From IMG/VR virus record IMGVR_UViG_3300044617_001663, positions 1 to 56,459 of that record: 56,459 nt of DNA; one strand, given 5' to 3'. Position 1 is the stretch's first letter. Each line of letters opens with the position of its first letter. Below, one piece after another: positions 9,243 to 34,961 of the stretch. The position numbers and the translations under genes were made by a program. Below the pieces are notes generated by a model, which worked only from the letters and a program-made list of their open reading frames with translations, did no database searches and was not told the origin of the DNA. This stretch comes from a virus.

Positions 9243-9245
9243 AAA

Positions 9246-11573
9246 ATGGCAGAAATAGAACTAAAATCAATATTTAAAACTCAGTTAGCAACTAGTGTTG
9301 CAGAGTCTTTTTACTTAAATCCAAAAGTAAAAAGTTACATATTTGTTGGTAAAGTAGATTCTTGGGTTGAAAATCAAAATGATTCTATACCATCAGTGCC
9401 AATTCCTGAAGTTACAGATACCCTTCAAGAAGAACTAGATGCATGGAAAAACATGTTGGCATGTGCTCCCGTAGAAAGAAAAAATGTAAGTTTGGTTGTC
9501 AAAAGAAATAATTGGAAATTTGGTGAATACTACGATCAATATTCTCATGACGATGAAATATTCAACATGAGAAAATTTTATGTAATTACACCATCAAATC
9601 ATGTTTATAAATGTTTAAGCAACAATGGTGGATCTGTTTCAGAATTTGAACCTTATGGTACAAGTGTTGAGGAATTAATTCTTCCTGATGGTTATATTTG
9701 GAAATATCTTTATACTGTTAGAGAAGAATTATATCGCTTTTTAACTCCAGAATACATGCCTGTAGAAAATTTAGAACTTCTCAGTTACAATGATGATAGA
9801 CAAAATCAATTAAATGTTCAATTAACTGCTATAGATGGAAGCATAGAAAATATAGAATTAGTTTCTACTGGAAGCCCATATCCATTTACAATAGATGAAG
9901 AAACAGATGAAAATAATAGTGAAAATTATATAACTGAAATTGAAACGTTATCTGATGGTAGTTTTAGATTTTATCTGAATAATGTTGATTTACTTTCAGT
10001 TATGGATAATTTTTATAATGGGTATGTGTTATACATTTCAAGTGGATTTTTAGCAGGAAAAGTATTTGATATAGAAGAATATTCATATAATGATGGATCT
10101 CCTATCATTACTTTAAATTCTGATCAAATAACTTCAACAACATTTACTTTTAATAATAGACCATTTTTTAAGATATTGCCAAAAGTTACAATATTTGGAA
10201 ATGGAACAAATGCAAGTGCTATTGCAAGAATCAACAAAACAACTAAACAAATTAGTTCTTTTGAAATTTTGAATCCTGGTGCAAATTATCGATATGCTAC
10301 TGTAGAAGTTGTATTATATGATTTGATAACAAATGCAGAAAAAGTTGAAACAATAGGTAAAGTAATAATTTCTCCATATGGTGGTCATGGTAAAAATGCA
10401 ATATTTGATCTATTACCTAGACATGTAATGGTTAGCGTAAATCTTAGAGAGGCAGAAATAGAAGATATTGTAAATGAAAATGAATTTAGGCAATTTGGTA
10501 TACTTCAAAATCCTGTATTGAATGATGGTACTGAAAGATTGGCTGGAACAGAAATACCAGATCAGATAATGTTGCGCCTAAAAAATAAAAATGCCACAGT
10601 ATCAATTACATTTAGCGATACAACAGAGGAAATTCAAGATATTTTAACTTCTACTGAAATTGCCGGAGAACTTATAGAACAAGGATTGGAAACTTCACCC
10701 AATAGAGCAATCGGAAGAATAATAAGTTATACGCCTACCAGTTATAAGAGTGGAATATTGTTGGCAAATTTATTGAATGGAAGTTTTTCTACAAATTTAC
10801 TTGCCAATCCAATAACAGTTGAAGAAAAATATACGATTGATGAATCAAATACAATCAGTTTGATAACTAACGATAATTTTTATACCTCCAGTACATTCGA
10901 AGAAGGTAAAAAAATCTTAGCATATACTACAAATTCAACGGCAGAGATACAAAAATCAGTTATTACAAATAATTCAGGAACTGCATGTAAAGTTTATTTG
11001 AAAAACATAAAAGGAAATTTTCAAGAATCATACTATAATTCTGTAGGTGAACTTATTAATGGTGAACTAGTTGTAAGCTATGATTATATTGATTCAAATA
11101 CTGGTCAATTAGTTTCTGCAAATGATATATTAGAATCAGTATCATACGTTGTTGATAGCGAAAAACAAAACTACGAAGCCTCTGTAAATAATTATAGAAC
11201 AACTACATTATTAACAATTAATTGGAATAATTATACAAATTTAATAAATTATGAAAAAGACGCAGTAGTGTATCAAGATTTAAACGACGGAACCAAAGCC
11301 ATGGGAACTGTAGTTTCTTGGACAGTAACAGATGAAAATAACAAATTAGGAAGACTAGAAATCACCAATGTTACTGGTCAATTTACAACTTCTTCCGAAG
11401 ATTTGGCTATAAAAACAGTCAATGATACCAATACGGACATTTCGGAACTAGTTTCAATAATAGAACCGGAGTTAATACCATTTTCTGGAAAAATTACATA
11501 TATACAAAATGTAAGACCTGTATTGAAAACTAGTGATCAAGACGAAGAAATTAAGATATTAATAGGATTCTGA
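9246..11573 (+). CDS. 8: Baseplate wedge protein gp8-like (enlarged)
   Basis: Residues about 1-180 match T4 gp8: FYLNPKVKSYIFVGK with a following Trp, a DAWKNMLACAPVERK block, the two-strand NWKFGEYYDQYSHDDE region, VYKCLSNNGGS, and GYIWKYLY (T4 has GYVWEYLF). The C-terminus QNVRPVLKTSDQDEEIKIL matches the T4 gp8 ending (RPPIIMAMDQTEEINILFTF). Between these ends it is expanded to 775 residues against 334 in T4, with extra beta-rich repeats containing GANYRYATVEVVLYD-like turns. It follows the gp7-position gene by 3 bases. The conserved ends make this a confident call despite the large insertion. Confidence 0.85.
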   Translation: MAEIELKSIFKTQLATSVAESFYLNPKVKSYIFVGKVDSWVENQNDSIPSVPIPEVTDTLQEELDAWKNMLACAPVERKNVSLVVKRNNWKFGEYYDQYSHDDEIFNMRKFYVITPSNHVYKCLSNNGGSVSEFEPYGTSVEELILPDGYIWKYLYTVREELYRFLTPEYMPVENLELLSYNDDRQNQLNVQLTAIDGSIENIELVSTGSPYPFTIDEETDENNSENYITEIETLSDGSFRFYLNNVDLLSVMDNFYNGYVLYISSGFLAGKVFDIEEYSYNDGSPIITLNSDQITSTTFTFNNRPFFKILPKVTIFGNGTNASAIARINKTTKQISSFEILNPGANYRYATVEVVLYDLITNAEKVETIGKVIISPYGGHGKNAIFDLLPRHVMVSVNLREAEIEDIVNENEFRQFGILQNPVLNDGTERLAGTEIPDQIMLRLKNKNATVSITFSDTTEEIQDILTSTEIAGELIEQGLETSPNRAIGRIISYTPTSYKSGILLANLLNGSFSTNLLANPITVEEKYTIDESNTISLITNDNFYTSSTFEEGKKILAYTTNSTAEIQKSVITNNSGTACKVYLKNIKGNFQESYYNSVGELINGELVVSYDYIDSNTGQLVSANDILESVSYVVDSEKQNYEASVNNYRTTTLLTINWNNYTNLINYEKDAVVYQDLNDGTKAMGTVVSWTVTDENNKLGRLEITNVTGQFTTSSEDLAIKTVNDTNTDISELVSIIEPELIPFSGKITYIQNVRPVLKTSDQDEEIKILIGF

Positions 11574-11583
11574 GGAGAAATAA

Positions 11584-14500
11584 ATGGCTTATAAGCACAA
11601 TGATTTGTTGAGTTTAAATCCTTATTTTGATGATTTTGACGATACAAAGAAATTTTTAAGAATTCTATTCAAACCTGGTTATTCGGTACAGGCTAGAGAA
11701 CTTACTCAATTACAAACTTTACTCCAAGACCAATTATCAAAATTGGGAAGTCATATATTTGAAGATGGTAGTCAAGTATTTGGTGGTGGTGTATCTTTAT
11801 CAAAGGCAAATTATCTAAGAGTAAAAGGAACTGCTACTTCTTCAGATCCTGTAAATTCAGATTTAACTTATTTTAAAAATAAAATTATACAAAAAACATC
11901 TTCAACTTCAATCAAAGCAAAAGTTGTCGAGGTCTTAACTCCAACAGAAGAAGATCCATTTACTATTTTTATATTACAATATTTAACTGGCACTGAATTT
12001 ACTGCCGGTGATACAATTTCAGTTGAAACACTAGAAAGTACATTCGTATCGTCTGGATTTACTGTAGCAACAAGATCCGAAATTGATTTCTATCAAAATA
12101 GTGATACTAGTTTTGGAAATACTTTAGTTGGTATTTCTGGTATAGCACACACTATAACTGTTGATGATGGAATATTTTATATTGATGGATTTTTTGTAAA
12201 ATCAACAAAACAATCAATTTCATTATTTAAATTATCAAAAGAAGATGATAATGAATTTGTTGATGATGTACAATATACTTTCAGCACTAGTGGAGTTCGT
12301 GTATTCTCATCCCCAACCAACAGAGTTGGATTTTCAATAGTAAGAAAAGCAGTAACATCAGATGAAGATTTAACACTTAAAGATCCTGCAAATGGTTCTT
12401 ACAATTTCAATGCTCCGGGTGCAGACAGATATGTAATAGATTTAGATATCCATAGTTTAGCATTCAGCAATATCGAAACAGATACTTCTTACTTAGTAAC
12501 TGAAGATTTTATAGAACTTGCTAGAATAGTTGAAGGAAAACTTGATTTTATCAGAAGAATTCCTTCATACTCTGATTTGCTTGAGGTATTCGCAAGAAGA
12601 ACATATGATGAATCTGGAAACTATACTGTAAAACCATTTACTCTAGAAGTTTATAATCATCTAAGAAAAGATAGATTTGTATTAGATCTAGTTTCCAAAG
12701 AAGAAATTCAAACAAATAACAATGCCATCAATTCTCCTTATCTTCCAATACCTGGAGATATTGTTCAATATAAAGAAGTAGAACCGGGGGCAGGCACAGT
12801 AGTAAAACAAGGAAGAATAATTTCAGTTGTAAAACTATCTAATAATCAACAAAATTCAACTGGAACTCTTGATGATATAATTTATAGAACAACAGTAAAA
12901 CTATTAGATAATACAACTCAACCATTTGAAATTAATGATCTAGTAACTTTATACGCATCTTTAGATGATACTACAAATGGTCCTGAAAATTCATCATATA
13001 ATGAAACTGTATATCAAGTTGAAAAAGTTGTAATCGACAGAGATGAAAGAGGAGCATATTCCAATTTAGAGGGTGCAACCCCTTCTGGCGATGACAACAA
13101 AATGGTTCTATCTGTCCAACCAGGAAAGGCATATGTATTTGGTTACGAATTTGAAACTATAAATTCAACAAACATATCAGTAGATAAGCCAAGAGAATTG
13201 GCATCTTTGAATGGTTATAATTTACCATCAAATATTGGTAATTATATGATGATTAAGGCAGAATCTTCAACTACTGGTTATCAATTCCCATTCTGGGGAA
13301 GAAAATTAGATCAAACATCAGGGTTGAATACATTATCTAGCGCAGAATTGGACAAGATTTATTTTGGTGCAAATTACAAGAGAATAACAATACCATATCA
13401 ACAAGATTTGTTTGCAACTCTTCCAGTAAAATATTGGTCGCCTTTGACTGCAATAGAGAGAAGCAACACTTGGGATAGCATTCTATTTGTATCATGTGCA
13501 TCTCAATTTAATTCCGATCCTCAATTAACATATGCACAAGATTGTGGAGATTTAGTTAAAACTGATGATCTTGAGGATTCAGACGGAACACTACCAGACA
13601 GATTCTCAAGACCTCAATCAGTAGAAGTAGAGATAGCAAAAAATATAGGTCAGGACAATGGTTCTAAGACTTACTATACCATGTCTGATATGTCTCCACA
13701 AACAGAATCAAATATCTCAAGATTGATGTTCACTGAACCTTATCATGGAGATTATGACGTAGCATACGTTCCAGATTTGCCGCAAACTATCACCGATACT
13801 GAATTGGCAGATGATTTTTATCTTGATGATGAAAAATATAGTGTATATCAAATTTTGAATTATTCTTCAAACAATACGCCAAATAGCATCAGAATAAGAA
13901 AAGGAAAAGCAGTGCGTTGGGTTCCTGCTTCTCCTCTTGGAGTTCAAACAAACAGTTCTCTCTTCATCAAGACAAGTTCTGGAAGTGATGCTCATGCATT
14001 TGGTGATGATGATCAAAATTATAATTTTAATATTGATGGTGGAGTTGTATTCCAAAATAGACAATCCGGAATTGTTGCAAATGCGATGCTTTCTTATGGT
14101 AGCAGCGTAAAAAGAATTTCACCAGTTGAAAACATTATAAAAATAACATTCACTAGTTATAACCCAGAATGTTTTGGTTCTTCTGATGAATGCAATACAG
14201 GTTCTTTCTCTGAGGGAGAAATTGTCACTCAACAATACAAAAGAAGAATAACCACAGATGATTATGAAGATGTAACAGCAAGAGGAGAAATTGTTGCTGT
14301 TAGCGTTCCTAACAATCCAACAAATTATGCAGGGTCTTCTAAACTCGTAGTTTACGTATCCACTGTTGGTGTTGATGACTTTGAGGAAAAGATTCAAACA
14401 CCAGTTGAGGATTATACTGGAACTGTCAATGATGTTTATGACATCAAAAATGTTGGTCCTGTAATCGGAAGTTGCGGTTGCTATGATGTAGAAAAAATAG

Positions 14501-17500
14501 AAGTATTGAATGGTGCTGATTGTGGTAGATTGATATTGGTAGAATTCAGAGAACCCGGTCAATTTGGAAATTATATTCCCGGAGCAGATGTTTATCAATA
14601 CAATATTTCAGAAATTCAAGATATTTTAGCAAATCCTGGATATGATTTTGCAATACAATCTTCGCTAGCTTTATCTGTAGGAAAAGTTGTAAAGTGGAAT
14701 TCCGGAAGTTCTATTCTTTATATTCTAGAAACAAGAAATAGATTTAAGATAGAGAATGGTATCATATATCAACTTGAAGGGACAGATGGCGAAGTAACAA
14801 TACCTGCTGTAAGATACGGCGGTAGGGGCTGGAATCGTTCAAAGAACATATTTGTCGAATCAAGCAATAATTACATTCCTGGTGGCGACAGTTCAGGAGA
14901 AGCAGGATATATTGAAAAAGTACAAGGCATCTTTATCAATATTAAACAACAATATCAAGCAGGAAAAGACTTCCTAGAGTATAAGGGAGTTGGAGAACTT
15001 ACTTCAGCATATCTCGCAAAACAAGTATACTCTCTTTCTGCCGATAATTATGTGCCTGGAAATGATTTCATAATTGGTGAACAAGTAAGACAAGAGCATT
15101 TAAATGTAAATACACTTGATGCTCCTTCTTTCTTCTCAACTGGAATAATTAGAGCTTGGAAGCACAGAGATCCTAATAATCCAGTAGATGATAGTCCAAC
15201 TATAATTCTAATTGAAAGAACAAATGACTTTGATTTTGCAGTAGGACCAAACAAAAAACCAGTAGTATCTGTAAATACTGGCGTATCATACAAAACCAGT
15301 CTGCTTGGTACAAAAATAGAAGATGAATTCATAGGAGAAGCAAGATTTAAGCAACTTGGAAGACAAACTCCAGAAGAATATAGACTGTTCTTTATGGATT
15401 CCAAGATGTATAATATTTTAGATACAAATGACAAATACCTCTTAGCAGAAACTAAGACAGTATATATTCTAGAAAATGAGAAATTTAAGAATTCATTCTA
15501 TAAGAAAATAGCAGATGTACATCCAGACCATAGAATTGTTGATACAAATAATGTAGGAAAAACAACAATTTATGATAGAGAGTCAAATTCTCTTCTATTC
15601 CCAATTCCAATTGGAGATGTAATCAAATCTGTATATGATATGGATTATAGAGTTCAAAAAGAAATATATCCAGATGAAGGTTCAAATTCTAAGAAATTGA
15701 CATTCACAGTAACTGGAACTAATTATCAATTTGTTGGTGGAAAATTAAATGGAAAAGTAGAAGCCACAGATTTATATGAACATTATATTTTGATTGAAGA
15801 GCCAGTAACAATTAAAGATTCTGCAAGAATTATTGATTTAATTACACAAAATTACTTGATTAAAACAAATAATTCAAATCCAGAATCGACTTCTTTTGCT
15901 CAACTGACTATTGAAAATATTAGTGGTAATTCATCTTTTGATTTTGATATCAATAATAAGAAATATCGCTTATATGCTACAATTGAGGTAGATCCAACAA
16001 ATTCTGTAAATGATTACAGAAGAAAAGTTGAAGAAAGATATTTCAATTCAGATGGTAATGCTTATTATGAGACTCAAATAAGGAAAGATGAAAATGGAAA
16101 TTATTACGGAATAATTCCAATCTCAGACGTTATTGAGATCGATAATATTGATTATTCAAACAATAACATAACAGATATTTTTGAATTTGACAATGGACAA
16201 ACAGATAATCTTTATGATTTTGCAAAAATTAAATTGAAGAAAGAATTTGAACTAGAATACTCATATCTTGAAAATAATACAGTTAAAGTATTCTTTAGGT
16301 ACTATAAGCATGTTGGTACTGGTCCATTCATTGTAAATTCGTACTCATCACTGAATGAGATTCCTCTTTATACGAGTCCATCAACGGGAAGTATTTACAG
16401 GCTAGATTCTTTTGTCGATTTCCGTCCTGTAAAGAAATTGAAATCTGATGCAGAATCTGTAGAGGACTATGAATTTGAATTCTTCGGAATTCCAAAGGCA
16501 TCGGAATCTTTCAATATTGATTATGATTATTATCTTGCTAGAAATTATAAATTAATGCTAACAAGAAATAAGAAATTCAAGATTGTAAACGGTCCTTCAT
16601 CCTTGGTCCCACAATTGCCAAGCGATGAAGAAAATTCAATGACATTGTTCAATATCGAATGTCCTCCATACGTATTTGACTGCAAGCAATGCAATATCAC
16701 AAATATAGATCATCAACGATATACAATGAAAGATATTGCAAATCTTGAAAAGAGAATTTCAAATATTGAGGAATTTGTCAAACTCAGCAATCTTGAAAAA
16801 GAAGCACAAACCACATTTGTTGATGATAGATTCAAGTCAGCAATTATAGTTGATGATTATTCAAGTCATAAAGTTGGTGAAATCAATAATACTGACTATA
16901 ACGTTTCAGTAGATTTTGACGAAAACACTTTAAGACCTCCAACTAGAACTTCAAATGTTGATTTGGAAGTAGACATAACAGAATCACAAAATATAAAATT
17001 GTCTGATAACTTTGTCACTTTAAATTACACAACTTCCTTGTTTGAGCAAAAACAACCATATGGCACATCAGAAATGATTGTAAACAGTGGAGATGTCATT
17101 CAATGGATTGGTAATATGAAGTTGTCTCCAAATTCAGATTCTTGGTTTGATAACAAAATTGCACCAGATGTTATTAGTAATAATAATGGTACAAATGATA
17201 TAATGTACAAAAATCCAAGAATAAGCAAAGATCTCATTCAACAATTAGAAAAGAAATATGATTATTGGACTTCTCTCTGGAAAGGAAAACCACTTCCAAA
17301 AGAAGCAAATGAACTTAAGAATTTCATAACGATGCTCAAGGGTGAGGCTTTAGTTGTCCCACAACCAAATGACAAAATAGTTTGGAAACGAGTATCTGTA
17401 CAATTAGAGCCAACTATTATTCGATCAACAAGAAAAGGAACTATTTACGAAGCAAATAGAAAAACATATTCTATACCAGTAAGAGTTCCATCAACTGATG

Positions 17501-19161
17501 TTATAGTTGATAAAAGTGTTGTTCCATTCATGAGAACAAGAGACATCACCGTAAATGCAACAGGAATGAAGCCAAACTGCAGAGTGTATGCATTCTTTGA
17601 CAATATCAGCGTCGATGATAATTGCACTCAAGCAAATGCAGTTGTGGTTGGAAATCTTCAAACAAATTCATTTGGGGAGATTCAATTCACATTCAAGATT
17701 CCAGAAGGTAAGTTCAGAACTGGAGAAAAACTACTAGTAATAACAGATAGTTCAACAAATAATCCAAATAATGCCACAACAATTGCTGAAGCAATTTACA
17801 ATTCTAGTGGTGTAACTCAGAATAAGTCTGATCTTTATCTTTCTACTCGTCTTGCAAAGAAAGCAGCAGCAAACATCTCATATGATGAGATGGATCCCAT
17901 GGCTCAAACCTTCTTTGTAGATGAAGCAACTTATCCAAATGGAATTTTTGTAGATTCTGTAGTATTGTTCTTCTCAAGCAAGGATACAAATTTACCAATA
18001 ACATTGGAATTGCGTCCAGTCAACAGTGGAGTTCCATCATCAGGTAAGAACCTATTAGTATATCCTGGTGCTTCTGTAACATTGAATCCAGATTCAATTA
18101 CAACTACAACTATTCCAAGTTTGGTAAATTCAAATGGTTCAACTATATTTAAATTTGATCATCCAATACACTTGTTGCCCGGAGAACATGCAATAGTTCT
18201 CAAGACAAATAGCGCAAATTACAAAGTTTATGTTGCTATTCCCGGACAAACAGTTATTGAATCTGGAAGTTTATTGACAAACAATGCATATAAAGGTTCA
18301 TTCTACAAGCCTCAAAATGCGTCACAATGGACTCCAGATCAAGATACAGATCTGATGTTTGGTATTCAAAAATGTTCATTCGAAACAACAGGACAGGTAA
18401 TATTCAAAGAATCTTCAAATAATGATTCTTTGGTTGAATATGATTTATTCAATCTTACATGCCCAAATATTAATTTCGACAAGAACATTTCCTTCAAGAT
18501 CAAGACCATGAAGAAAGATTCTAATACTCTTGATTCTGAATATACTGAAATAGTTCCAGAAATTAATATATCACAAAGACAAACCAAGATTGCCAAAAAC
18601 AATGGTCAAAGCGTCAAGGTGAGAGTTGATTTGGAATCAGATGGAATTGTATCCCCAATTTTTGATGTTGATCGAATCAACATGATTGCAGTCAAGAATC
18701 TTATCGATTCAAACGATACAGTAGATAAGACCAGTGTAAATTACAACGGAGAATTGAATCCCAAAGGCAATGCACCGGAGAAGTCACCAAATGGAACTGT
18801 AGACACTCCAAGAGTTCGTTACATTAGCAAATTGGTTACCCTTGAAGAGGGAATTGATGCAAATAATGTAAATGTAATTTTGGATGTAAATAAGCCAGAG
18901 GGAACAAACATCCAAGTATTTGTTAAATGGCAAGGAGCAGGAAAAGACGCTTCGTTTGATGACGAGCCATATTATCAATTAATACCTGATAAGAAGGATC
19001 TCATAACTTATGATTCCAACACATATGAATCTGTAAAATATACTTTACCAGAAGATACAAAGGAATCTTTTGTTAAATTCTCAATAAAGATATGTCTATA
19101 CTCCTCTAATTCATCAATTGTTCCAACAGTCAAGAATATGAAAGTGATTGCAGTCGTATGA
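11584..19161 (+). CDS. Giant baseplate / fibre-network structural protein with DUF4815-type N-terminus
   Basis: At 2525 residues this is the largest gene in the window. The N-terminus (NPYFDDFDDTKKFLRILFKP, then GYSVQARELTQLQTLLQDQL) is the conserved opening of DUF4815-type structural proteins of marine T4-like phages. A second conserved landmark near residue 1700 is CPPYVFDCKQCNITNIDHQR followed by YTMKDIANLEKRISNIEEF. After residue about 1900 come adhesin-like beta domains (DPMAQTFFVDEATYPNGIFV). Cys pairs occur near residues 860, 960 and 1700. It follows gp8 by 10 bases with a clear GAGGAG. A role in the outer baseplate or fibre attachment, comparable to gp10, is inferred from position and size. 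Confidence 0.78.
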   Translation: MAYKHNDLLSLNPYFDDFDDTKKFLRILFKPGYSVQARELTQLQTLLQDQLSKLGSHIFEDGSQVFGGGVSLSKANYLRVKGTATSSDPVNSDLTYFKNKIIQKTSSTSIKAKVVEVLTPTEEDPFTIFILQYLTGTEFTAGDTISVETLESTFVSSGFTVATRSEIDFYQNSDTSFGNTLVGISGIAHTITVDDGIFYIDGFFVKSTKQSISLFKLSKEDDNEFVDDVQYTFSTSGVRVFSSPTNRVGFSIVRKAVTSDEDLTLKDPANGSYNFNAPGADRYVIDLDIHSLAFSNIETDTSYLVTEDFIELARIVEGKLDFIRRIPSYSDLLEVFARRTYDESGNYTVKPFTLEVYNHLRKDRFVLDLVSKEEIQTNNNAINSPYLPIPGDIVQYKEVEPGAGTVVKQGRIISVVKLSNNQQNSTGTLDDIIYRTTVKLLDNTTQPFEINDLVTLYASLDDTTNGPENSSYNETVYQVEKVVIDRDERGAYSNLEGATPSGDDNKMVLSVQPGKAYVFGYEFETINSTNISVDKPRELASLNGYNLPSNIGNYMMIKAESSTTGYQFPFWGRKLDQTSGLNTLSSAELDKIYFGANYKRITIPYQQDLFATLPVKYWSPLTAIERSNTWDSILFVSCASQFNSDPQLTYAQDCGDLVKTDDLEDSDGTLPDRFSRPQSVEVEIAKNIGQDNGSKTYYTMSDMSPQTESNISRLMFTEPYHGDYDVAYVPDLPQTITDTELADDFYLDDEKYSVYQILNYSSNNTPNSIRIRKGKAVRWVPASPLGVQTNSSLFIKTSSGSDAHAFGDDDQNYNFNIDGGVVFQNRQSGIVANAMLSYGSSVKRISPVENIIKITFTSYNPECFGSSDECNTGSFSEGEIVTQQYKRRITTDDYEDVTARGEIVAVSVPNNPTNYAGSSKLVVYVSTVGVDDFEEKIQTPVEDYTGTVNDVYDIKNVGPVIGSCGCYDVEKIEVLNGADCGRLILVEFREPGQFGNYIPGADVYQYNISEIQDILANPGYDFAIQSSLALSVGKVVKWNSGSSILYILETRNRFKIENGIIYQLEGTDGEVTIPAVRYGGRGWNRSKNIFVESSNNYIPGGDSSGEAGYIEKVQGIFINIKQQYQAGKDFLEYKGVGELTSAYLAKQVYSLSADNYVPGNDFIIGEQVRQEHLNVNTLDAPSFFSTGIIRAWKHRDPNNPVDDSPTIILIERTNDFDFAVGPNKKPVVSVNTGVSYKTSLLGTKIEDEFIGEARFKQLGRQTPEEYRLFFMDSKMYNILDTNDKYLLAETKTVYILENEKFKNSFYKKIADVHPDHRIVDTNNVGKTTIYDRESNSLLFPIPIGDVIKSVYDMDYRVQKEIYPDEGSNSKKLTFTVTGTNYQFVGGKLNGKVEATDLYEHYILIEEPVTIKDSARIIDLITQNYLIKTNNSNPESTSFAQLTIENISGNSSFDFDINNKKYRLYATIEVDPTNSVNDYRRKVEERYFNSDGNAYYETQIRKDENGNYYGIIPISDVIEIDNIDYSNNNITDIFEFDNGQTDNLYDFAKIKLKKEFELEYSYLENNTVKVFFRYYKHVGTGPFIVNSYSSLNEIPLYTSPSTGSIYRLDSFVDFRPVKKLKSDAESVEDYEFEFFGIPKASESFNIDYDYYLARNYKLMLTRNKKFKIVNGPSSLVPQLPSDEENSMTLFNIECPPYVFDCKQCNITNIDHQRYTMKDIANLEKRISNIEEFVKLSNLEKEAQTTFVDDRFKSAIIVDDYSSHKVGEINNTDYNVSVDFDENTLRPPTRTSNVDLEVDITESQNIKLSDNFVTLNYTTSLFEQKQPYGTSEMIVNSGDVIQWIGNMKLSPNSDSWFDNKIAPDVISNNNGTNDIMYKNPRISKDLIQQLEKKYDYWTSLWKGKPLPKEANELKNFITMLKGEALVVPQPNDKIVWKRVSVQLEPTIIRSTRKGTIYEANRKTYSIPVRVPSTDVIVDKSVVPFMRTRDITVNATGMKPNCRVYAFFDNISVDDNCTQANAVVVGNLQTNSFGEIQFTFKIPEGKFRTGEKLLVITDSSTNNPNNATTIAEAIYNSSGVTQNKSDLYLSTRLAKKAAANISYDEMDPMAQTFFVDEATYPNGIFVDSVVLFFSSKDTNLPITLELRPVNSGVPSSGKNLLVYPGASVTLNPDSITTTTIPSLVNSNGSTIFKFDHPIHLLPGEHAIVLKTNSANYKVYVAIPGQTVIESGSLLTNNAYKGSFYKPQNASQWTPDQDTDLMFGIQKCSFETTGQVIFKESSNNDSLVEYDLFNLTCPNINFDKNISFKIKTMKKDSNTLDSEYTEIVPEINISQRQTKIAKNNGQSVKVRVDLESDGIVSPIFDVDRINMIAVKNLIDSNDTVDKTSVNYNGELNPKGNAPEKSPNGTVDTPRVRYISKLVTLEEGIDANNVNVILDVNKPEGTNIQVFVKWQGAGKDASFDDEPYYQLIPDKKDLITYDSNTYESVKYTLPEDTKESFVKFSIKICLYSSNSSIVPTVKNMKVIAVV

Positions 19162-19379
19162 ATTCCAAGATGAAAGTAGAAGGATTTGGTGATTTATATA
19201 AAGATAAATATTCAGGAGCAATTCTGAATTGCAATAAAGAAGCATATTATTCTGCAAAAAACAAAAAAGAGACATTAAATAAAATAAACAAATTAGAGGA
19301 AGAAATAACAAATCTTAAAAGTACGAATGAAGAAATAAAAAACATGTTAAAGATTTTGTTAGAGAGAAATAACCCATGA
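19158..19379 (+). CDS. Small coiled-coil protein of the baseplate operon
   Basis: A 73-residue protein with an N-terminal motif FGDLYKDKYSGAILNCNKEA followed by a Lys/Glu/Leu heptad region (residues about 35-68) that should form a short coiled coil. Small proteins with the same FGDLY opening and coiled-coil end recur next to structural genes in marine T4-like phages; the role is not known to me. It overlaps both neighbours by 4 bases, so it is surely translated with them. It could be a chaperone or a minor virion protein. Confidence 0.7.
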   Translation: MNSKMKVEGFGDLYKDKYSGAILNCNKEAYYSAKNKKETLNKINKLEEEITNLKSTNEEIKNMLKILLERNNP

Positions 19380-20782
19380 GTACTGAACCATTAAGCGATA
19401 CCATACAACCGTTGACATTAACAGATACAGTTTATACTTGGTATAACACTACGAATGAAATTATTAATCTCGTAAATCCTCTTAATATTTACGATGTTAT
19501 TCCTGAAAATGGCATAACTTCCAGTCGTAGTGGAATATCAGATGGAATATTAACTTTTTCTGTTAATTTAAAATCTGACGGTGGTTTAAATTTTGAAGGT
19601 GGGGGGTCGATATCTCTATCTACGGCTAATATTTTAAAAGAATCATTTTCAACTTCTAGTTCATATAAATTCTTTGCTGAAGATTCTTCTGGAACCATAA
19701 AAGCAGTTACATTTGATTTGAATGAAGGAAAAGGAATTGATTTTATAGATAATACCAATTCCTTGACGATTGGAATAGATTCCAGCGTTGTAACTTTAAC
19801 TGATACACAGACACTTACAAACAAATCATTTGTTGCTCCAAAAATTGTAAATGATATAAGTCCATCTGGAAGTATTACTTTATTAGCTCCTGCTGGTATA
19901 GGTTCATATAATTTAACATTACCCAGCAATTTCGGTGGGGCAGGACAATATTTAAAATCATTAGGAAATGGAACTTTGGCGTGGGACACTCCTTCAGGTG
20001 GAACAGGCGGTGGAATATTAAATATTATAGCAGAATCTGGAACAACTTTTGTAAATTTAAGTACACAGAATTTAAGTTTTCAAGGTGATACTGGTATCAA
20101 TACTACAGCAAGTGTAGTAGGTGGCACTCCTAGAGTGGTAATTGGAATAGATAACACAGTAGTGACCCTTGCTAAAACACAAACGTTAAAAGAAAAAACA
20201 TTAGAAGAACCAAAAATAAAAAATATAAGTGCACAATACACTATTACTTTAAAACCTAGTATAGCACAAGAATCTAATTATACTCTAACATTACCCACAA
20301 CAGATGGTGATAGTGGTCAATATTTAAAAACAGATGGATCAGGAGTTTTATCTTGGGATACTCCCTCTGGTGGTGGAGTTACTTCTTTTACCATTAAATC
20401 TGATAGTCAAACTGCAACTTTCAATGCTTCTTCTGAGGCATTACAATTTGTAGGAGGAATTGGATTAAATACTTCTTTGAGTTTATCTGGTTCAGATAGA
20501 AAAGTTACGATAGATTTGGACACATCCGGAAGTACATTTACCGATGGAAATAATTTAACTGTATCTTTCCCGGGCGGAAATACAGTTAGGTATTCTCTTG
20601 ATACTGTTGTTACTGATATTACCTTAAGTAATTCTTTATTTACTAATATAAATTATCTTTACTCAGATATCACTGGTAATACTGGACCTCTATATACTCT
20701 TATGGATTCTGATTGGGATGAAACACAAACAGAAGATGGACATATAGTAGGCCAATTGGTTCTTGTTCCTTTTGCAAATTAA
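19376..20782 (+). CDS. Tail fibre-like protein with two internal beta repeats
   Basis: A 468-residue Gly/Ser/Thr-rich protein. Two copies of a module of about 75 residues are visible: one with DTQTLTNKSFVAPKI ending GQYLKSLGNGTLAWDTPSGG (residues about 142-210), the other with KTQTLKEKTLEEPKI ending GQYLKTDGSGVLSWDTPSGG (about 265-335). These TQTLTNK and GQYL..DG.G.L.W modules are common in trimeric phage fibres. The N-terminal part would attach to the baseplate. There is no intramolecular chaperone motif that I can recognise. It overlaps the small coiled-coil gene by 4 bases. Confidence 0.75.
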   Translation: MSTEPLSDTIQPLTLTDTVYTWYNTTNEIINLVNPLNIYDVIPENGITSSRSGISDGILTFSVNLKSDGGLNFEGGGSISLSTANILKESFSTSSSYKFFAEDSSGTIKAVTFDLNEGKGIDFIDNTNSLTIGIDSSVVTLTDTQTLTNKSFVAPKIVNDISPSGSITLLAPAGIGSYNLTLPSNFGGAGQYLKSLGNGTLAWDTPSGGTGGGILNIIAESGTTFVNLSTQNLSFQGDTGINTTASVVGGTPRVVIGIDNTVVTLAKTQTLKEKTLEEPKIKNISAQYTITLKPSIAQESNYTLTLPTTDGDSGQYLKTDGSGVLSWDTPSGGGVTSFTIKSDSQTATFNASSEALQFVGGIGLNTSLSLSGSDRKVTIDLDTSGSTFTDGNNLTVSFPGGNTVRYSLDTVVTDITLSNSLFTNINYLYSDITGNTGPLYTLMDSDWDETQTEDGHIVGQLVLVPFAN

Positions 20783-20800: not shown

Positions 20801-22141
20801 ATGGCAATTCATATAAATGTAGGTGAAAGTTCTTACAAGGAACTTTCCAACGTATATTTAAAACAAATCGACTCTTATACGGAAATTTGCAAAGTATATA
20901 TTTGCACAGGACCAAATCAGTATCAATTACTTTTTGATGTGTGTGAAACAATTCCTTGCGAAGAATCAGATGAAGAATGTGATGATTGTTTGCCTACTTG
21001 GTCAAGTTTTCATGATGAATTATTGTTATCCACTGATGGACCAGAACCAGTAGGAATAACAAAACTCATATGCCCAACAACCCAGTGTGCACATGGTGCA
21101 GGTGATGATATATTCACATTAGATACAACTTGCATGGATGACAACATTTGTTGTAATTGCGGATTTGATATTTTTGGTGTCAGAATAGAACCAGAAGCAT
21201 GTGTTCCTCTTGTTGATATAAATTGTCCATGTTTAAAATTAGATAGTACTTCATGTTCTGGTTTGCCAAAATATATCAGAAATACTTGTCAAGCATATGT
21301 TTGGACTGCTCTTGGTGGAGATTTACTTGAAGGTAAAACTTCCTCTTGTAAATCATGTATAGATTCCACCAGAACTATTGTTGGTAAATGCTGTAGAAAT
21401 GGAAGAAGATATTCTTATATTAAAGAAGCAACATGGATCAAAGATCCAACCAGCGAAAGTGATTGCGGAATAAAAAGAAATTGTTTTGCTTTTGAATATC
21501 TTTCTGCAATATACCCAGATGAAAGTATCGGTATAATTGATTATGGATATGGATTTGATATAGAAAAAATATTTTCTGAAGGTGGTATTGCAGGAGGCGG
21601 TCCCGGAGGACCAATAACTATATGCCCTAACATTGAAGAGGGAATAGATGAAAGTTTTTACTGTGCATGTTTTCCAAATTGCTGCAATACATTTTGTATA
21701 GGACAAGAATGTACACAAGAAGCAAGATGTGAAGCTATGTGTAATCCTATAAATAATTGTAGTCAATTTAATAATGTATATCAATCTTTATATAATCAAT
21801 CATTTGATGAATATAAATGTCAATATTGTTCTACAGTAGAAAACGATCCTTGCGGTTGTAATAGTCCACCACCACCAGAAGGATGCGATATCTGTGTCAA
21901 AAATCCTTGTGGTACAGGATGTTATGTGTCTTGTTCAGAAGGACCAATAAATTGGTGTGATTATTTCTGTACTACTCCAAATGAAATAAATTGGAGTTGT
22001 ATATTTCAATCTGCAGGACTTCCAAACGATGCTACACAATTGTTATTAATTTTAAGAAATCTCGGTTGTCCTTGTGCTCCGGATTTTGATACATGTAACG
22101 ATATTTGTTATAATTCATTTGGAACTAATGATGCAAATTAA
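20801..22141 (+). CDS. Cysteine-rich structural protein (about 49 Cys in 446 residues)
   Basis: The first 50 residues (MAIHINVGESSYKELSNVYL, then ICKVYICTGPNQYQLLFDV) form a beta-rich head of the kind seen at the start of phage appendage proteins. The remainder is extremely Cys-rich, with CC pairs, CxC and CxxC spacings: NICCNCGFD, FYCACFPNCCNTFC, DPCGCNSPPPPEGCDICVKN. No signal peptide or membrane helix is present. It lies between the fibre gene and the DUF1617-like gene, in the late structural operon, preceded by a weak TTAGGA. It shares the Cys-rich style, not obvious alignment, with the 976-residue protein at 32031. Metal binding or disulfide cross-linking after lysis are both possible. 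Confidence 0.65.
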   Translation: MAIHINVGESSYKELSNVYLKQIDSYTEICKVYICTGPNQYQLLFDVCETIPCEESDEECDDCLPTWSSFHDELLLSTDGPEPVGITKLICPTTQCAHGAGDDIFTLDTTCMDDNICCNCGFDIFGVRIEPEACVPLVDINCPCLKLDSTSCSGLPKYIRNTCQAYVWTALGGDLLEGKTSSCKSCIDSTRTIVGKCCRNGRRYSYIKEATWIKDPTSESDCGIKRNCFAFEYLSAIYPDESIGIIDYGYGFDIEKIFSEGGIAGGGPGGPITICPNIEEGIDESFYCACFPNCCNTFCIGQECTQEARCEAMCNPINNCSQFNNVYQSLYNQSFDEYKCQYCSTVENDPCGCNSPPPPEGCDICVKNPCGTGCYVSCSEGPINWCDYFCTTPNEINWSCIFQSAGLPNDATQLLLILRNLGCPCAPDFDTCNDICYNSFGTNDAN

Positions 22142-22158: not shown

Positions 22159-22515
22159 ATGCAAGTGAAACTGTCTGAAATTTATAATGCAATTGAACCT
22201 CTTAATAAACTTTCTGAAATGCCACTTCCAGTAGCAATTTCATATAAATTAGTAAAATTAGTTAAAAAATTAAGTGATGAAGTAGAAACAATAGAGAAAC
22301 TTCGTCAAAAATTAATAAAAAAACATGGAAAAGAAGATGAATCTGGAAATATTACTGTTACAGAAGAGAAAAAACAAGACTTTTTGAATGAATTTACAAC
22401 TTTACTTAGTTCAAAAATTAAAGTGGATTTTGAGCCTATCCCAGTAGAATCTCTAAAAGATATTACAATGTCCGTATCAGACATGGGTAGATTACACTTT
22501 ATTTTTAAAGAATAG
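22159..22515 (+). CDS. DUF1617-like small phage protein
   Basis: A 118-residue mostly helical protein. The layout, a helical N-terminus (ISYKLVKLVKKLSDEVETIE), then KLIKKHGKEDESGN, then VDFEPIPVESLKDITMS near the C-terminus, resembles the DUF1617 type of phage proteins, for which I know no assigned function. It is preceded by AAAGGA at about 22146 and is the last gene before the CATAAATA promoter of the neck genes. A tail-assembly chaperone is a possible role, by inference only. Confidence 0.5.
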   Translation: MQVKLSEIYNAIEPLNKLSEMPLPVAISYKLVKLVKKLSDEVETIEKLRQKLIKKHGKEDESGNITVTEEKKQDFLNEFTTLLSSKIKVDFEPIPVESLKDITMSVSDMGRLHFIFKE

Positions 22516-22555: not shown

Positions 22556-23374
22556 ATGCCTAACCTATCGTCCAGAGAAGCCCTAAAAGATTACTGTTTG
22601 CGTAGATTGGGGCATCCTGTAGTACAAGTAAACGTAGACGATGCTCAGATTGAGGATCGCATAGATGATGCTTTGCAATATTTTGCAGAGTATCATTTCG
22701 ATGGTACTGAAAGAGTTTATATTCAAAAACAAGTAACTCCTAAAGATGTAGAAAGAGGTTACTTTGATCTTACAGAGCCAACAGAAGCAGACGAAGAAAA
22801 AGGTATTAAAGCAGCACCAGCAATAGATGAAACTTCAAATAAAATAGTTTCTATTGTAAGAGTATTTCAATTGTACGATACTCTTGGCGGTACTGGTATG
22901 TTCGATGCTCGCTATCAAATCGCTCTAAACGACCTTTATGGGCTTAGAACAAACACCTATAGTCAATCTATGATTACGTATGATATCACTCGTAGGCACA
23001 TGGGATTATTACAAGATCTTTTGACTCCAGAGAAGCAATTAAGATTCAGTAGAGTTACAAATAAAGTCCATATTGATATGGATTGGAAAAACCAAACAAC
23101 TGTTGGTAACTATATTTTAATGGAAGGATATGCAGTCCTTGATCCTGAACAATATACAGAAATTTATAATGATATGGTTGTAAAAAAATATACAACAGCA
23201 TTGATTAAAGAACAATGGGGAATGAATTTGATGAAATTCAAAAATATCGAACTCCCCGGCGGTATTAGTATTGACGGAGAATCAATACTTGCAGAAGCTT
23301 TGAAAGATAAAGAAAGAATAGAAGAAGAAATACAACTTAAATGGGAACTACCTCCCGGATTCTTCATAGGATAA
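22556..23374 (+). CDS. 13: Neck protein gp13
   Basis: gp13 and gp14 form the collar that closes the packaged head and accepts the tail. The N-terminus (REALKDYCLRRLGHPVVQVN, then VDDAQIEDRIDDALQYFAEYH) is the highly conserved opening of marine gp13 proteins. Also typical are YFDLTEP and the DLYGLRTNTYSQSMITYDITR region. The C-terminus ends in LKWELPPGFFIG. Length is 272 residues against 309 in T4. Clear AAAGGAG Shine-Dalgarno; gp14 follows one base after the stop. Confidence 0.93.
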   Translation: MPNLSSREALKDYCLRRLGHPVVQVNVDDAQIEDRIDDALQYFAEYHFDGTERVYIQKQVTPKDVERGYFDLTEPTEADEEKGIKAAPAIDETSNKIVSIVRVFQLYDTLGGTGMFDARYQIALNDLYGLRTNTYSQSMITYDITRRHMGLLQDLLTPEKQLRFSRVTNKVHIDMDWKNQTTVGNYILMEGYAVLDPEQYTEIYNDMVVKKYTTALIKEQWGMNLMKFKNIELPGGISIDGESILAEALKDKERIEEEIQLKWELPPGFFIG

Positions 23375-29917: not shown

Positions 29918-31540
29918 ATGGCTTTCAAATTATTCGGGTACAGTTTTACCAAAGAATCAAAAGAAAATTTAATATCTTTCGTTCCGGAAGATCTAAATGA
30001 TGGCTCATCGATTATCGCAGCAGGCGGTACGATGGGCTATTATGTAGATCTTGATGGAACAATTCGTAGTGATATAGAATTAATAAAAAGATATAGAGAA
30101 ATGTCTCTCCATGCAGAGATTGAACTTGCAATTGATGATATTATAAATGAAGCAATTGCAGATGATGCTACGGGAAGATATGTAACTTTAGATCTAGATA
30201 AAACAAATCTTCCTCCTATCATAAGACAAATTATAATTGAAGAATTTGAAAGAATTTTAACTTTATTAAATTTTAATCGTTATGGAAAAGAACTTTTCCG
30301 TAAATGGTATATCGATGGTAGATTATATTTTCATAAAATATTAGGAGATGATCCAAGAGAAGGAATTAAAGAATTAAGACAAATTGATCCCATCTACATC
30401 AAAAAAGTAAGAGAAGTTAGAAAGAATGATCAAGTTCTTGGAGTACCAGTTGTAGAGCAAGTCGATGAATATTATTTGTTTTCTGCATTTGAAAAATCAA
30501 ATGCATATGATACTCAAGGATTGAAGATTTCGGTAGATTCTATTTCATATTGCCATTCTGGTCTTTACGATGCGCAATCTAAACGTGTGGTAGGCTATCT
30601 TCACAAAGCAATCAAGCCACTCAATCAATTAAGAATGATTGAAGATGCTACAGTCATTTATCGCATATCCCGTGCTCCAGAAAGAAGAGTATTTTACATA
30701 GACGTAGGTTCTCTACCAAAAAATAAAGCAGAACAATATCTTCGTGATATTATGAATAAGTTCCGCAATAAAGTTGTTTATGATGCAGCAACCGGAGAAG
30801 TTCGTGATGATCGTAAACATATGCACATGTTAGAAGATTTCTGGCTTCCACGTAGAGAAGGTGGTCGTGGTACTCAAATTGAAACTCTTCCTGCAGGACA
30901 AAATCTAGGAGAGATGGGCGATGTTCTTTATTTTCAAAAGAATTTATGGAGGGCATTAAATATCCCAATGACTCGTATGGAAGCCGAAAATGGTTTCAAT
31001 ATGGGAAGATCCTCCGAAATTACAAGAGATGAATTAAAATTCTCAAAATTTATTAATTCATTAAGAATGAAATTTTCAGATTTCTTTCTTGATATTCTCA
31101 AAACTCAATTACTTGCAAAACAAGTTATGAGTCAAGAGGATTGGGAGGCAATAGAACAAAAAATTACGTTTGTTTTTTCGACCGATTCATACTTTACAGA
31201 ATCAAAACAAGCAGAAATAATGAAAGATCGTCTTGCAATGCTTAGAGATGCTGCTGACTTTGTAGGAAGATATTACTCTGAAAGATGGGTAAGAAAGAAT
31301 ATTCTACGTCAAACAGAAGATGATATAGATGAAATGAACGCCGAAATTGAAGTAGATAGGCAAAAAGAACTTGAGAGACAACAACAAGAAATGGCTATGC
31401 AAGCAGAACAACAAGCTCAAATGCAACAGCAACAACAGGGAGCCCCTGCAGAAGGTCAAGAGCAAACTCCAACCGGAGAAGCGACTGCAACTTCCTCTAC
31501 ATTAGGAGAAATAGTTTTCGATGCCAGCAGCTTACTATGA
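29918..31540 (+). CDS. 20: Portal vertex protein gp20
   Basis: The dodecameric DNA entry channel that initiates head assembly. Diagnostic blocks are YREMSLHAEIELAIDDIINE near residue 65, LRQIDPIYIKKVREVRK, IKPLNQLRMIEDATVIYRIS, PERRVFYIDVGSLPKNKAEQ, KHMHMLEDFWLPRREGGRGT and NIPMTRMEAENGFNMGRSSE. Length is 540 residues against 524 in T4, with a Gln/Ala/Thr-rich C-terminal tail beyond residue about 490. The next gene starts inside the last 20 bases of this one. Confidence 0.97.
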   Translation: MAFKLFGYSFTKESKENLISFVPEDLNDGSSIIAAGGTMGYYVDLDGTIRSDIELIKRYREMSLHAEIELAIDDIINEAIADDATGRYVTLDLDKTNLPPIIRQIIIEEFERILTLLNFNRYGKELFRKWYIDGRLYFHKILGDDPREGIKELRQIDPIYIKKVREVRKNDQVLGVPVVEQVDEYYLFSAFEKSNAYDTQGLKISVDSISYCHSGLYDAQSKRVVGYLHKAIKPLNQLRMIEDATVIYRISRAPERRVFYIDVGSLPKNKAEQYLRDIMNKFRNKVVYDAATGEVRDDRKHMHMLEDFWLPRREGGRGTQIETLPAGQNLGEMGDVLYFQKNLWRALNIPMTRMEAENGFNMGRSSEITRDELKFSKFINSLRMKFSDFFLDILKTQLLAKQVMSQEDWEAIEQKITFVFSTDSYFTESKQAEIMKDRLAMLRDAADFVGRYYSERWVRKNILRQTEDDIDEMNAEIEVDRQKELERQQQEMAMQAEQQAQMQQQQQGAPAEGQEQTPTGEATATSSTLGEIVFDASSLL

Positions 31541-32027
31541 CATAACAACTGACGAAGGTGCAACATTTCGTTTAAAACTAAAGTACATGGATACTTTTGG
31601 TAAAGTTTATAATTTAATTGATCCTGTACCACCATTTGGTTTTGAGGAAAGATTCACTACAAATGATCCTAACAATCCATATCAAATTAAAGCATATGCC
31701 AGAATGGAAGTTCGCAACTCACACGACGGACAGATAGTTGGATTGGTTGGCACACCCGGAACTTCAATTGAAAATACATTAAGTGGAAATTCTGAATATA
31801 CAGTATCTCCTATAAAAATAGAATTAGGTGATGGTGGAACTTCACAAACTGAACCAAACATAATAATAACAATTGAAGCAGCAAAAATGGCAAGAGTTCA
31901 ATACGGAAGATATCTTTATGATATTGATATATGTTTTACACAGGATATCGTAGGTCATCCGAATGAAGTTATATTTAAAATATTACAGGGTAGATTCATA
32001 GTAAATCCAAGTATCACTAGACAGTAA
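31521..32027 (+). CDS. Ig-like beta-sandwich small structural protein (copy 1)
   Basis: A 168-residue protein beginning in the last 20 bases of gene 20, with AGGAG 13 bases before its ATG. It opens YYDITTDEGATFRLKLKYMD and ends GRYLYDIDICF, then KILQGRFIVNPSITR. That order (YDI, EG.SF.L...Y.D, long middle, Y.YDI, I.KGRF.V) recurs in the 137-residue protein at 51892, so the two are paralogues or share a domain. Small Ig-like proteins of this design are common in phage baseplate and fibre regions. Each copy is followed within 15 bases by a large appendage-type gene. Role as an adaptor or head/tail decoration is inferred. Confidence 0.62.
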   Translation: MPAAYYDITTDEGATFRLKLKYMDTFGKVYNLIDPVPPFGFEERFTTNDPNNPYQIKAYARMEVRNSHDGQIVGLVGTPGTSIENTLSGNSEYTVSPIKIELGDGGTSQTEPNIIITIEAAKMARVQYGRYLYDIDICFTQDIVGHPNEVIFKILQGRFIVNPSITRQ

Positions 32028-32030
32028 AAA

Positions 32031-34961
32031 ATGCAAGATTTTTTAATAGAAGTTATAAATTATGTCCCATCTTACTATCCTTTCACAGAAAGAGATGGTT
32101 CTATTGGAATTGCTGACTTCTATGCCCAACAGCCAGTATCAAACTTCAAAAAATTGCATGATGATCCTGTTTATAGAAACTTTCAAGCAACTTGTGATGT
32201 CATAGGAGTTCCTGTTGGGCCTTGCAATAAGTTATTGAAAGGTACGCAACTTGAATGCGTAAGAAAACCACCTCCATCAATAAGTCCACCTCCAATATGT
32301 CAAGACAATAATGGAATTACATTACCATGCCGTTGCAGTTGCACCGGCTCTTGTCTTTATAGAGAAGGGAAAACATCAGACTATATTGAGGATTGGGATA
32401 GGCAAGAATTATTGGAATTAATTGATTCTGTAAGATTGTTTCCAGAAATCGATACAACAGATTTAAATAATACTTCTATTGATAACAATTACAATAGATT
32501 GATAACTCATGAACTTGCAGGAAATGCTTATTGGATAGGATTACCACCATCTTGTGATGGAATTTGGATAACAATAGTAAGTTGTGAAGACTCGGAATTT
32601 ATAGGATTTTACGAATTAACTTCTCCTGTATTTGGTATTGGAAATCAAGTAGAATTAAAAGGCAGAGGGCAAAGAGTAAAAATAGAAACAGAAACTCCTG
32701 GAGTTTACAAAAAATATCAAGTATATTATTCTTATGAATTTGAATATAAACTAGAAATTACTCCTCCAAATCAAATGACTTTTAGATTGGCAGATTCCAA
32801 TATAATTCAAAATGCAGAAAATGATGATTTCCAATCAAATCTTGCAGAAGAGGAAATTAATACATATTCTCGTTTTTGTTATGATGAATTTGTGTCATTT
32901 ACTGCTAGAAGTTGCATAAAAAATAATAGTACACAAGGAACTCTAGGAAAAATACCTTGTGTTTGCGAAGAAGAATTCAACACAAGTTTTAATACTTCTG
33001 ATGCAGTCAAATATGTTTTGAAAAAGGATGTTCCATATGAAAGATTGCAATATGGAACATTTTCTTATGAAAATGAAGAAACACAAATTGCAATGAATGC
33101 CTCATTTGATGAAGTTCCTCCTCCAGATGGGCTTGCTTCTAATACTTTAATTTACGAATTTTATGACGCTTTTTCCAGAGATGTCATAAGATGGAATCAA
33201 TCTGGAACTTGGGAAGATAGTAATCAAGAGGAAAACTGGTATTCGTGGGAAAGAAAACAACCACTTGATGCATTCATATGGGATAATGAAAAAATTTACA
33301 ATTCTTGCTATGATCTTTTAAGTCAAAAGAAAAGAGAAAATCTAAGAGATGAAGTTCCACCATGCGAAAACGTAATGTGTGGAAGAGTTGAAATTAATGC
33401 AAATCCAAATGGATCAAAATTTAGTAATTGGAAAAATGCTATAGAGAATAATAATTTTACAGGTATTACTTCTGCACAAATTTTAGAATGGAATATGTTC
33501 TCCAAATTTGGATTCCCAACTGCTTATGTTTATAATCCTTTTGCCTCTAACCAACTCAAAGATTTATGGTATGATGAAATAAACAATAGGTTTATAGATG
33601 GTGGGACATTCAAGGCAGAAAAATCTCAATTTACGATTCCGTGTTTTCCAAAAATAAAGTGCGAACAAGGATTTATCCGAGTTACAAACGTATTGGATGT
33701 TGCAAGACCTTGTTCATTAAAATATGGTGGTCAATGGACAAATGAAAATACGGGTGAAATAACAACAACGACTGCAGGGGGAGCAATCCATGATTTATTT
33801 GTTGGAATTGACTTCAGACCCAATTCAGGTTGTTCTGAAACTTGTCCTGAATGTTCCCCTGCAGATTGCTGTGTAAGTAAGAATGGTTCTTTTGAAATAA
33901 TTTCAGGACCAATAGGTTTAGTTGCATATAACACTATTTCAGTAACTGAAGATGAAAATTCTGATTTGCAAATTAAAGAGGCAATTAAGAGTCTTGACTT
34001 GACTTTTATGGAATGCTACTTGGAAAACTGCAATAGTAGAGGTCTAGAACTAAATTATAAAAATTGCATTGAAAATAATTTATCTCCCGATGATTGTGAT
34101 GGAACTTTAGAAGATTGCTGCAAGCAATATGCTATAGAAGCATGTATAGCACAATATGAAAATAATGATAATTTTGCTTGCAATAATCAAAGTATAACGG
34201 AAGCAAATTTCACAAGAATACAAGAATTCGTGTGGAATTTCAAAGGTTCTCCTCTTTCATCGTGCAATGAAAATCCTCAATTGGGTGCTCCATTCCAGTG
34301 CGCATATGAAGTTAATCCATTAAGACCAAGTAATCTGTACTACACTGAAATATACGAAGGTCAATGCTTGGTAAGCACTACAAGAGGAGATTCTTCATGT
34401 AATGATGGAAATGAATATTGTGAAATAGTAACTAAAGATAAAAGAACATCACCATTATATTTCGCAGGGAATACTAAATCAACTCATACATGTCCAATAA
34501 CCTTCTGCAGCAAATGTATAGAAGGAACTACTTCTGATTGTTCCTGTTGCGGAATTAATAACATAACAAGCAAAGAAAATAGATCAAGTCAATCAGTATT
34601 TAATGATTGTGGTTCTTGTTCTGGTAATGAAAAATGTTGCCCAGAATGCTGCTCAGTATGCAATGAATTTGGAAATGATGCTTGTGGATTAAATTCACAA
34701 TTTATTAGTCCAAATTGGTCATCAGAAATGCCATGTGGTGTTCCCCCTTGCGAATGGTATTACTTGGACTGGCTAGATTGTGTTCAAAAATGCTTACCCG
34801 GAGATCTTTCGGGAAATGATTGTGAAAATGCATGTTCATATAATCCCAATTTTGAATGTAATTGCGATGATTTATATCAAAAATATCAAGATTGTGATGT
34901 AGATGAAGAATATAGCGATGATGGTACTACAAATAGCGGGGGATTTGGTGGTTCAATTTAA
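32031..34961 (+). CDS. Large cysteine-rich structural protein (about 61 Cys in 976 residues)
   Basis: It begins MQDFLIEVINYVPSYYPFTE and has alternating Cys-poor beta-rich stretches and dense Cys clusters: PCRCSCTGSC near residue 100, CSETCPECSPADCC near 600, and SDCSCCGINN to CGSCSGNEKCCPECCSVC near 845-885. Residues about 370-550 are rich in Trp, Tyr and Asn and look carbohydrate-binding in character, but I recognise no family. The C-terminus is acidic and Gly-rich. There is no signal peptide. It starts 3 bases after the Ig-like gene; together they separate gp20 from the gp67-like and gp21 genes, which are adjacent in T4. Virion attachment or metal binding is inference. Confidence 0.62.
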   Translation: MQDFLIEVINYVPSYYPFTERDGSIGIADFYAQQPVSNFKKLHDDPVYRNFQATCDVIGVPVGPCNKLLKGTQLECVRKPPPSISPPPICQDNNGITLPCRCSCTGSCLYREGKTSDYIEDWDRQELLELIDSVRLFPEIDTTDLNNTSIDNNYNRLITHELAGNAYWIGLPPSCDGIWITIVSCEDSEFIGFYELTSPVFGIGNQVELKGRGQRVKIETETPGVYKKYQVYYSYEFEYKLEITPPNQMTFRLADSNIIQNAENDDFQSNLAEEEINTYSRFCYDEFVSFTARSCIKNNSTQGTLGKIPCVCEEEFNTSFNTSDAVKYVLKKDVPYERLQYGTFSYENEETQIAMNASFDEVPPPDGLASNTLIYEFYDAFSRDVIRWNQSGTWEDSNQEENWYSWERKQPLDAFIWDNEKIYNSCYDLLSQKKRENLRDEVPPCENVMCGRVEINANPNGSKFSNWKNAIENNNFTGITSAQILEWNMFSKFGFPTAYVYNPFASNQLKDLWYDEINNRFIDGGTFKAEKSQFTIPCFPKIKCEQGFIRVTNVLDVARPCSLKYGGQWTNENTGEITTTTAGGAIHDLFVGIDFRPNSGCSETCPECSPADCCVSKNGSFEIISGPIGLVAYNTISVTEDENSDLQIKEAIKSLDLTFMECYLENCNSRGLELNYKNCIENNLSPDDCDGTLEDCCKQYAIEACIAQYENNDNFACNNQSITEANFTRIQEFVWNFKGSPLSSCNENPQLGAPFQCAYEVNPLRPSNLYYTEIYEGQCLVSTTRGDSSCNDGNEYCEIVTKDKRTSPLYFAGNTKSTHTCPITFCSKCIEGTTSDCSCCGINNITSKENRSSQSVFNDCGSCSGNEKCCPECCSVCNEFGNDACGLNSQFISPNWSSEMPCGVPPCEWYYLDWLDCVQKCLPGDLSGNDCENACSYNPNFECNCDDLYQKYQDCDVDEEYSDDGTTNSGGFGGSI

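Follow-up and report, generated by a model that had tools for sequence, protein, structure and literature searches.

A cysteine-dense protein encoded just before gp13 in an uncultured T4-like phage, a candidate disulfide-stapled virion appendage

Introduction

Phage particles are assembled in a reducing cytoplasm and, for this reason, they are thought to be poor in cysteine. The Agrobacterium phages Milano and 7-7-1 depart from this picture; extensive disulfides were revealed in their virions by cryo-EM and, in the case of Milano, also by mass spectrometry (PMC10811340, PMC12796354). Both are myophages whose particles are assembled in the cytoplasm, and their many cysteines, about 2% of the residues (2.1% in Milano), are spread over the sheath, baseplate and capsid proteins and link their subunits. 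The fibres of Milano (PMC10811340) and of Pam3 are disulfide-linked to the baseplate, the Pam3 link being cited in PMC11821841. A different chemistry has been suggested for marine phage fibres in the Trojan/Ferrojan Horse proposals, according to which fibre tips of the T4 gp37 type (for example, in Alteromonas phage R22Y) carry iron at HxH histidine sites, several of them per chain (PMC11705849).

In the Kyanoviridae, tail-fibre genes are located immediately before gp13, as in Methylophilales phage Melnitz and Synechococcus phage S-SZBM1; the annotations of the cultured relatives describe the gene in this slot as "tail fiber" in Methylophilales phage Melnitz-3 and as "structural protein" in S-SZBM1. 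In HTVC008M the same slot is occupied by metabolic genes. The fibre-region proteins of five reference phage records have at most 2 cysteines per 80 residues, except for one small HTVC008M protein with 3. Here, we examine a gene in this position whose product is more than one-tenth cysteine, and we consider what the function of so many cysteines could be.

Results

The window, which is the whole 56,459-nt stretch of an IMG/VR record analyzed here, comes from an uncultured virus as a linear fragment, and its genes are ordered as in T4-like phages. The baseplate genes are followed, on the plus strand, by the start of an appendage cluster: a DUF4815 protein of 2525 residues resembling a baseplate/fibre connector (11584..19161; Pfam PF16075, E 7e-50), a small virion protein of 73 residues (19158..19379; phrog_473, E 2e-13) and a fibre-like protein of 468 residues that lacks cysteine entirely (19376..20782; phrog_692 virion structural protein, E 9e-7). 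The latter adjoins the gene of interest (20801..22141, plus strand), an ORF that begins with an ATG at 20801 preceded by an AGGA box, ends with a stop codon at 22141 and encodes 446 residues. Downstream on the same strand are a conserved protein of 118 residues (22159..22515; phrog_1401, E 6e-15), found at the same place in relatives, and the gp13 neck protein, or head-tail adaptor (22556..23374; phrog_211, E 5e-39), which matches 2223 phage records. The region 3' of gp13 encodes the gp14 neck protein, the tail-sheath stabilizer, sheath, tube, portal and major head protein. Thus, the gene belongs to the fibre cluster that precedes gp13, where a neck or tail-fibre appendage of a T4-like phage would be expected, and nearly all the genes with a family match in the approximately 10-20 kb on either side of it are structural or involved in packaging.

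The protein contains 49 cysteines (10.99%), arranged in 3 CC, 5 CxC, 5 CxxC and 7 CxxxC motifs. A sequence-only reading of this DNA had already reported a 446-residue product with about 11% cysteine, CC, CxC and CxxC motifs and no signal peptide, and all of these points were confirmed; the highest 19-residue Kyte-Doolittle mean within the first 40 residues is just 0.33. The remaining ORFs of the window, after removal of this gene and of a second Cys-rich one at 32031-34961, have 148 cysteines in 16,327 residues (0.91%), and at a background of 0.9% the binomial chance of finding at least 49 is about 1e-36. The 17 other structural proteins of the window average only 0.58%, the sheath, tube and capsid all being Cys-poor. 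The view, also put forward in the sequence-only reading, that phage structural proteins normally contain little cysteine is too strong as a general rule, given the disulfide networks of Milano and 7-7-1. The 49-Cys protein is acidic (62 D+E against 24 K+R, with 3 His), is rich in Asn, Ser and Gly, and has 44 aromatic residues.

The sole homologue found in IMG/VR comes from another sample (locus L003), where the gene order is the same and the protein 50% identical. The sequence-only reading had made its case depend on the conservation of the cysteines among homologues, and the idea survived this comparison: 46 of the 49 are retained in L003, as opposed to 182 of the 364 residues of other kinds in the alignment (Fisher P 4e-10), a result that, like the corresponding one for the second Cys-rich protein, comes from two sequences. 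All five Trp and all five CxxC pairs are also retained, and His4 is the only one of the three His that is. The two genes have diverged substantially (pS 0.63, pN 0.31), and a silent difference is present in 23 of the 46 codons for the conserved cysteines. With so high a pS and silent changes in half of these codons, the retention of the cysteines reflects selection at the residue level and not recent common ancestry. By these comparisons, the ORF is a real gene under selection.

Searches of Pfam, PHROGs, PDB, 50,697 phage records and 84,980 genomes gave no match to the protein; in particular, none of the first three linked it to a recognized family of fibres, whiskers or adhesins. A PDB match to TIMP-3 (E 1.1) and some weak N-terminal matches (E 2-3) among the phage records were attributed to chance.

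The protein can be divided into a short N-terminal segment (approximately residues 3-48; 20807..20944, plus strand) and a Cys-rich body (residues 49-446; 20945..22138, plus strand). The former is a tandem repeat with a unit of about 14-15 residues and is probably the anchoring part; its self-similarity at offset 14 has a shuffle P of 0.0014 (0.0002 in the L003 copy). At the same slot in another relative, L040, the encoded protein opens with a unit of this type, VRDxxGNPxEIxKIY, repeated three times almost without deviation. When all the ORFs of the fetched loci were searched, the N-terminal profile of the 49-Cys protein placed this L040 protein first after its self matches (E 0.05, a weak value), and, independently, so did the N-terminal profile of the slot family of L049-L052 and L135 (E 5e-4, again weak). 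That two families of unrelated appearance both point to the same protein suggests a common attachment part that would carry interchangeable bodies. Virion attachment, as claimed in the sequence-only reading, fits the gene order and the N-terminal repeat. The beta-rich head of that reading has only the indirect support of the repeat, as AlphaFold2, run with two sequences, gave no confident model of the protein (pLDDT 29). Structure prediction for the L049-L052/L135 family (5 sequences) also gave no fold, with the same pLDDT of 29.

Although the pre-gp13 proteins of Melnitz and S-SZBM1 are encoded at the same position as the 49-Cys protein, they have only 0-1 cysteine and no detectable similarity to it. 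In the uncultured clade to which the window belongs (gp13 identity at least 53%), 8 of the 27 loci with enough upstream sequence encode a fibre-region protein with 8-16 cysteines per 80 residues, as compared with 0 of 11 more distant loci, a difference that is only suggestive (Fisher P 0.08). Three further cases (L086, L111 and L114) came from a portal search, and they join L004, L011, L013, L021 and L049-L051 as uncultured relatives with a Cys-dense slot protein. These resemble the 49-Cys protein in being products of fibre-region genes with a cysteine density in this same range, but the bodies that were compared cannot be aligned to it; profile comparison with the L049-L052 family and direct comparison with the L004 protein both gave no match. 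Some have additional Thr-rich linkers or a domain weakly resembling Lcl_C, the latter forming a C-terminal stretch after the Cys-rich one in L086 and L111 (E 0.008 and 0.02). Since the compared bodies, apart from that of the L003 homologue, are unrelated to the 49-Cys protein, Cys-dense modules seem, on sequence grounds, to have been acquired or to have evolved several times in the slot before gp13.

The fibre-region protein of L004 (702-3488; 928 residues) has 95 cysteines, located in repeating Cys-rich units, and also a linker rich in Thr and Pro, and that of L011 (3676-8781; 1702 residues) has RCC1-like repeats (Pfam E 1e-6) as well as a Cys-dense stretch. The L052 slot protein (6735-9569) has an extra N-terminal stretch with a GDSGSP motif that looks trypsin-like by eye, Pfam Peptidase_S6 reaching only E 0.06. 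In L005 a 1650-residue protein (6704-11653) has an N-terminal part that by eye resembles the window's 52317-54455 protein, fused to Cys-rich and hydrophobic segments.

The second Cys-rich protein of the window (32031..34961, plus strand) has 976 residues and 61 cysteines (6%), 41 of which are within the last 376 residues (601-976). Its gene adjoins, on its 5' side, the portal gene and a gene for a 168-residue phrog_1084 protein that is weakly tail-fibre-assembly-like (31521..32027, plus strand). Direct comparison with the 49-Cys protein gave no match. Its L082 homologue retains 59 of the 61 cysteines as against 52% of the other residues. The window has two cassettes built in this manner, 31521-32027 with 32031-34961 and 51892-52305 with 52317-54455, each consisting of a small phrog_1084 protein followed by a large protein without a family match.

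Discussion

We consider that the 49-Cys protein is probably (at a rough probability of 0.55) a virion appendage of a T4-like phage, with an outer part that becomes cross-linked by disulfides once the cell has lysed. This reading draws on the conservation of the cysteines in both Cys-rich proteins, the gene order together with the annotations of the slot in cultured relatives, the N-terminal repeat, the Cys-rich stretches that precede the Lcl_C-like domain in L086 and L111, the acidic composition and the precedent of Milano and 7-7-1; from the same evidence we infer the protein's presence in the virion, its place on the particle, its disulfide state and its contact with the host. The appendage would be a neck or tail fibre or an adhesin, that is, an outer component of the particle. 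Its first 48 or so residues, a tandem beta-hairpin-like repeat, would attach it to the particle, and the other 400 or so would make up one or more small domains with little hydrophobic core, held by some 23 disulfides. In the cytoplasm the chain would be synthesized and attached in its reduced form; oxidation would follow when lysis exposes it to oxygen, and the product would be a compact head, resistant to protease and shear, with a role in host contact or in protecting the particle. Such a composition, and a near-complete conservation of cysteine in an otherwise rapidly changing protein, are what is expected of secreted cystine-rich domains. Several points count against this interpretation: the database searches and the structure prediction gave neither a match nor a fold, a chain that has to pair about 23 disulfides correctly with no foldase to help it faces a difficult task, the number of cysteines is odd in both copies, and the N-terminal links to other slot proteins are weak when taken one by one.

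The sequence-only reading had offered metal loading and disulfide hardening after lysis as its two options; the second is the one favored here as plausible, and the first has not been supported. In the metal alternative, several Cys4 zinc sites or Fe-S clusters would fold the protein, possibly with a metal-linked role at a receptor. It has the attraction that these sites would form in the reducing cytoplasm without foldases, and all five CxxC pairs are retained in both copies; iron-bearing phage fibres have, moreover, been proposed (PMC11705849). Nevertheless, we think it unlikely. Five CxxC pairs are close to the 4.7 expected from the local cysteine density (5 versus 4.9 in L003), CxC is similarly not in excess, and neither is the excess of CxxC typical of zinc knuckles or zinc ribbons seen, while a DnaJ zinc-domain control gave a clear one (P 0.003). 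This spacing test has no power for clusters of the metallothionein type, since a metallothionein control does not stand out in it; it therefore argues against arrays of zinc knuckles but leaves other metal clusters, including sites made of cysteine only, conceivable. A protein with 44 aromatic residues alongside 11% cysteine is, however, unlike a metallothionein. The more specific idea in the sequence-only reading, an iron carrier directed to siderophore receptors, was rejected: HxH, of which gp37-type tips have several per chain, is absent from the 49-Cys protein, its L003 homologue, the second Cys-rich protein and the L082 protein, and just one His is conserved.

Two further alternatives are less probable than metal binding. 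In the first, which we regard as improbable, the disulfides are between chains and lock the appendages to one another or to the neck or baseplate, as in Milano, so that reduction would be needed for infection. The cysteine counts are odd in the 49-Cys protein and its L003 copy (49 and 47) and in the second protein and its L082 copy (61 and 65), which means that at least one cysteine per chain is either unpaired or bonded to another chain, and the Milano and Pam3 fibres provide a precedent (PMC10811340, PMC11821841). Yet four odd numbers can be chance, and the cysteines of Milano are found throughout its structural proteins, whereas here the adjacent fibre has none and the other 17 structural proteins so few that there would be few partners. 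For this last reason a network spanning the whole virion, of the Milano type, was rejected. In the window phage the cysteines are concentrated in two proteins, at 11% in the 49-Cys protein, five times the density of Milano and 7-7-1, and at 6% in the second; a further difference is that the 49-Cys protein matched no sequence among the phage records. The system is accordingly not of that kind, although by analogy the chemistry may be alike.

The second of these alternatives, that of an intracellular or released protein which happens to lie in a structural cluster, can draw on the metabolic genes of HTVC008M but is equally improbable, given the structural and packaging genes that surround it, the N-terminal repeat that it may share with another slot protein and the absence of any match to an enzyme or regulatory family.

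A disulfide-stapled appendage could conceivably have a more active function. The unpaired cysteines of both Cys-rich proteins might be reactive thiols, and the oxidized appendage might exchange with thiols on the host surface, thereby producing a covalent, redox-dependent attachment or trigger. To our knowledge, this has been described in no phage, and we consider it very improbable.

If the disulfide-stapled appendage is the correct interpretation, the virions of some uncultured T4-like phages may carry outer domains as densely stapled by cystine as secreted animal proteins. This raises the question of how and when phage proteins become oxidized, and it provides a candidate for the hardening of the particle against its environment or for its contact with the host.
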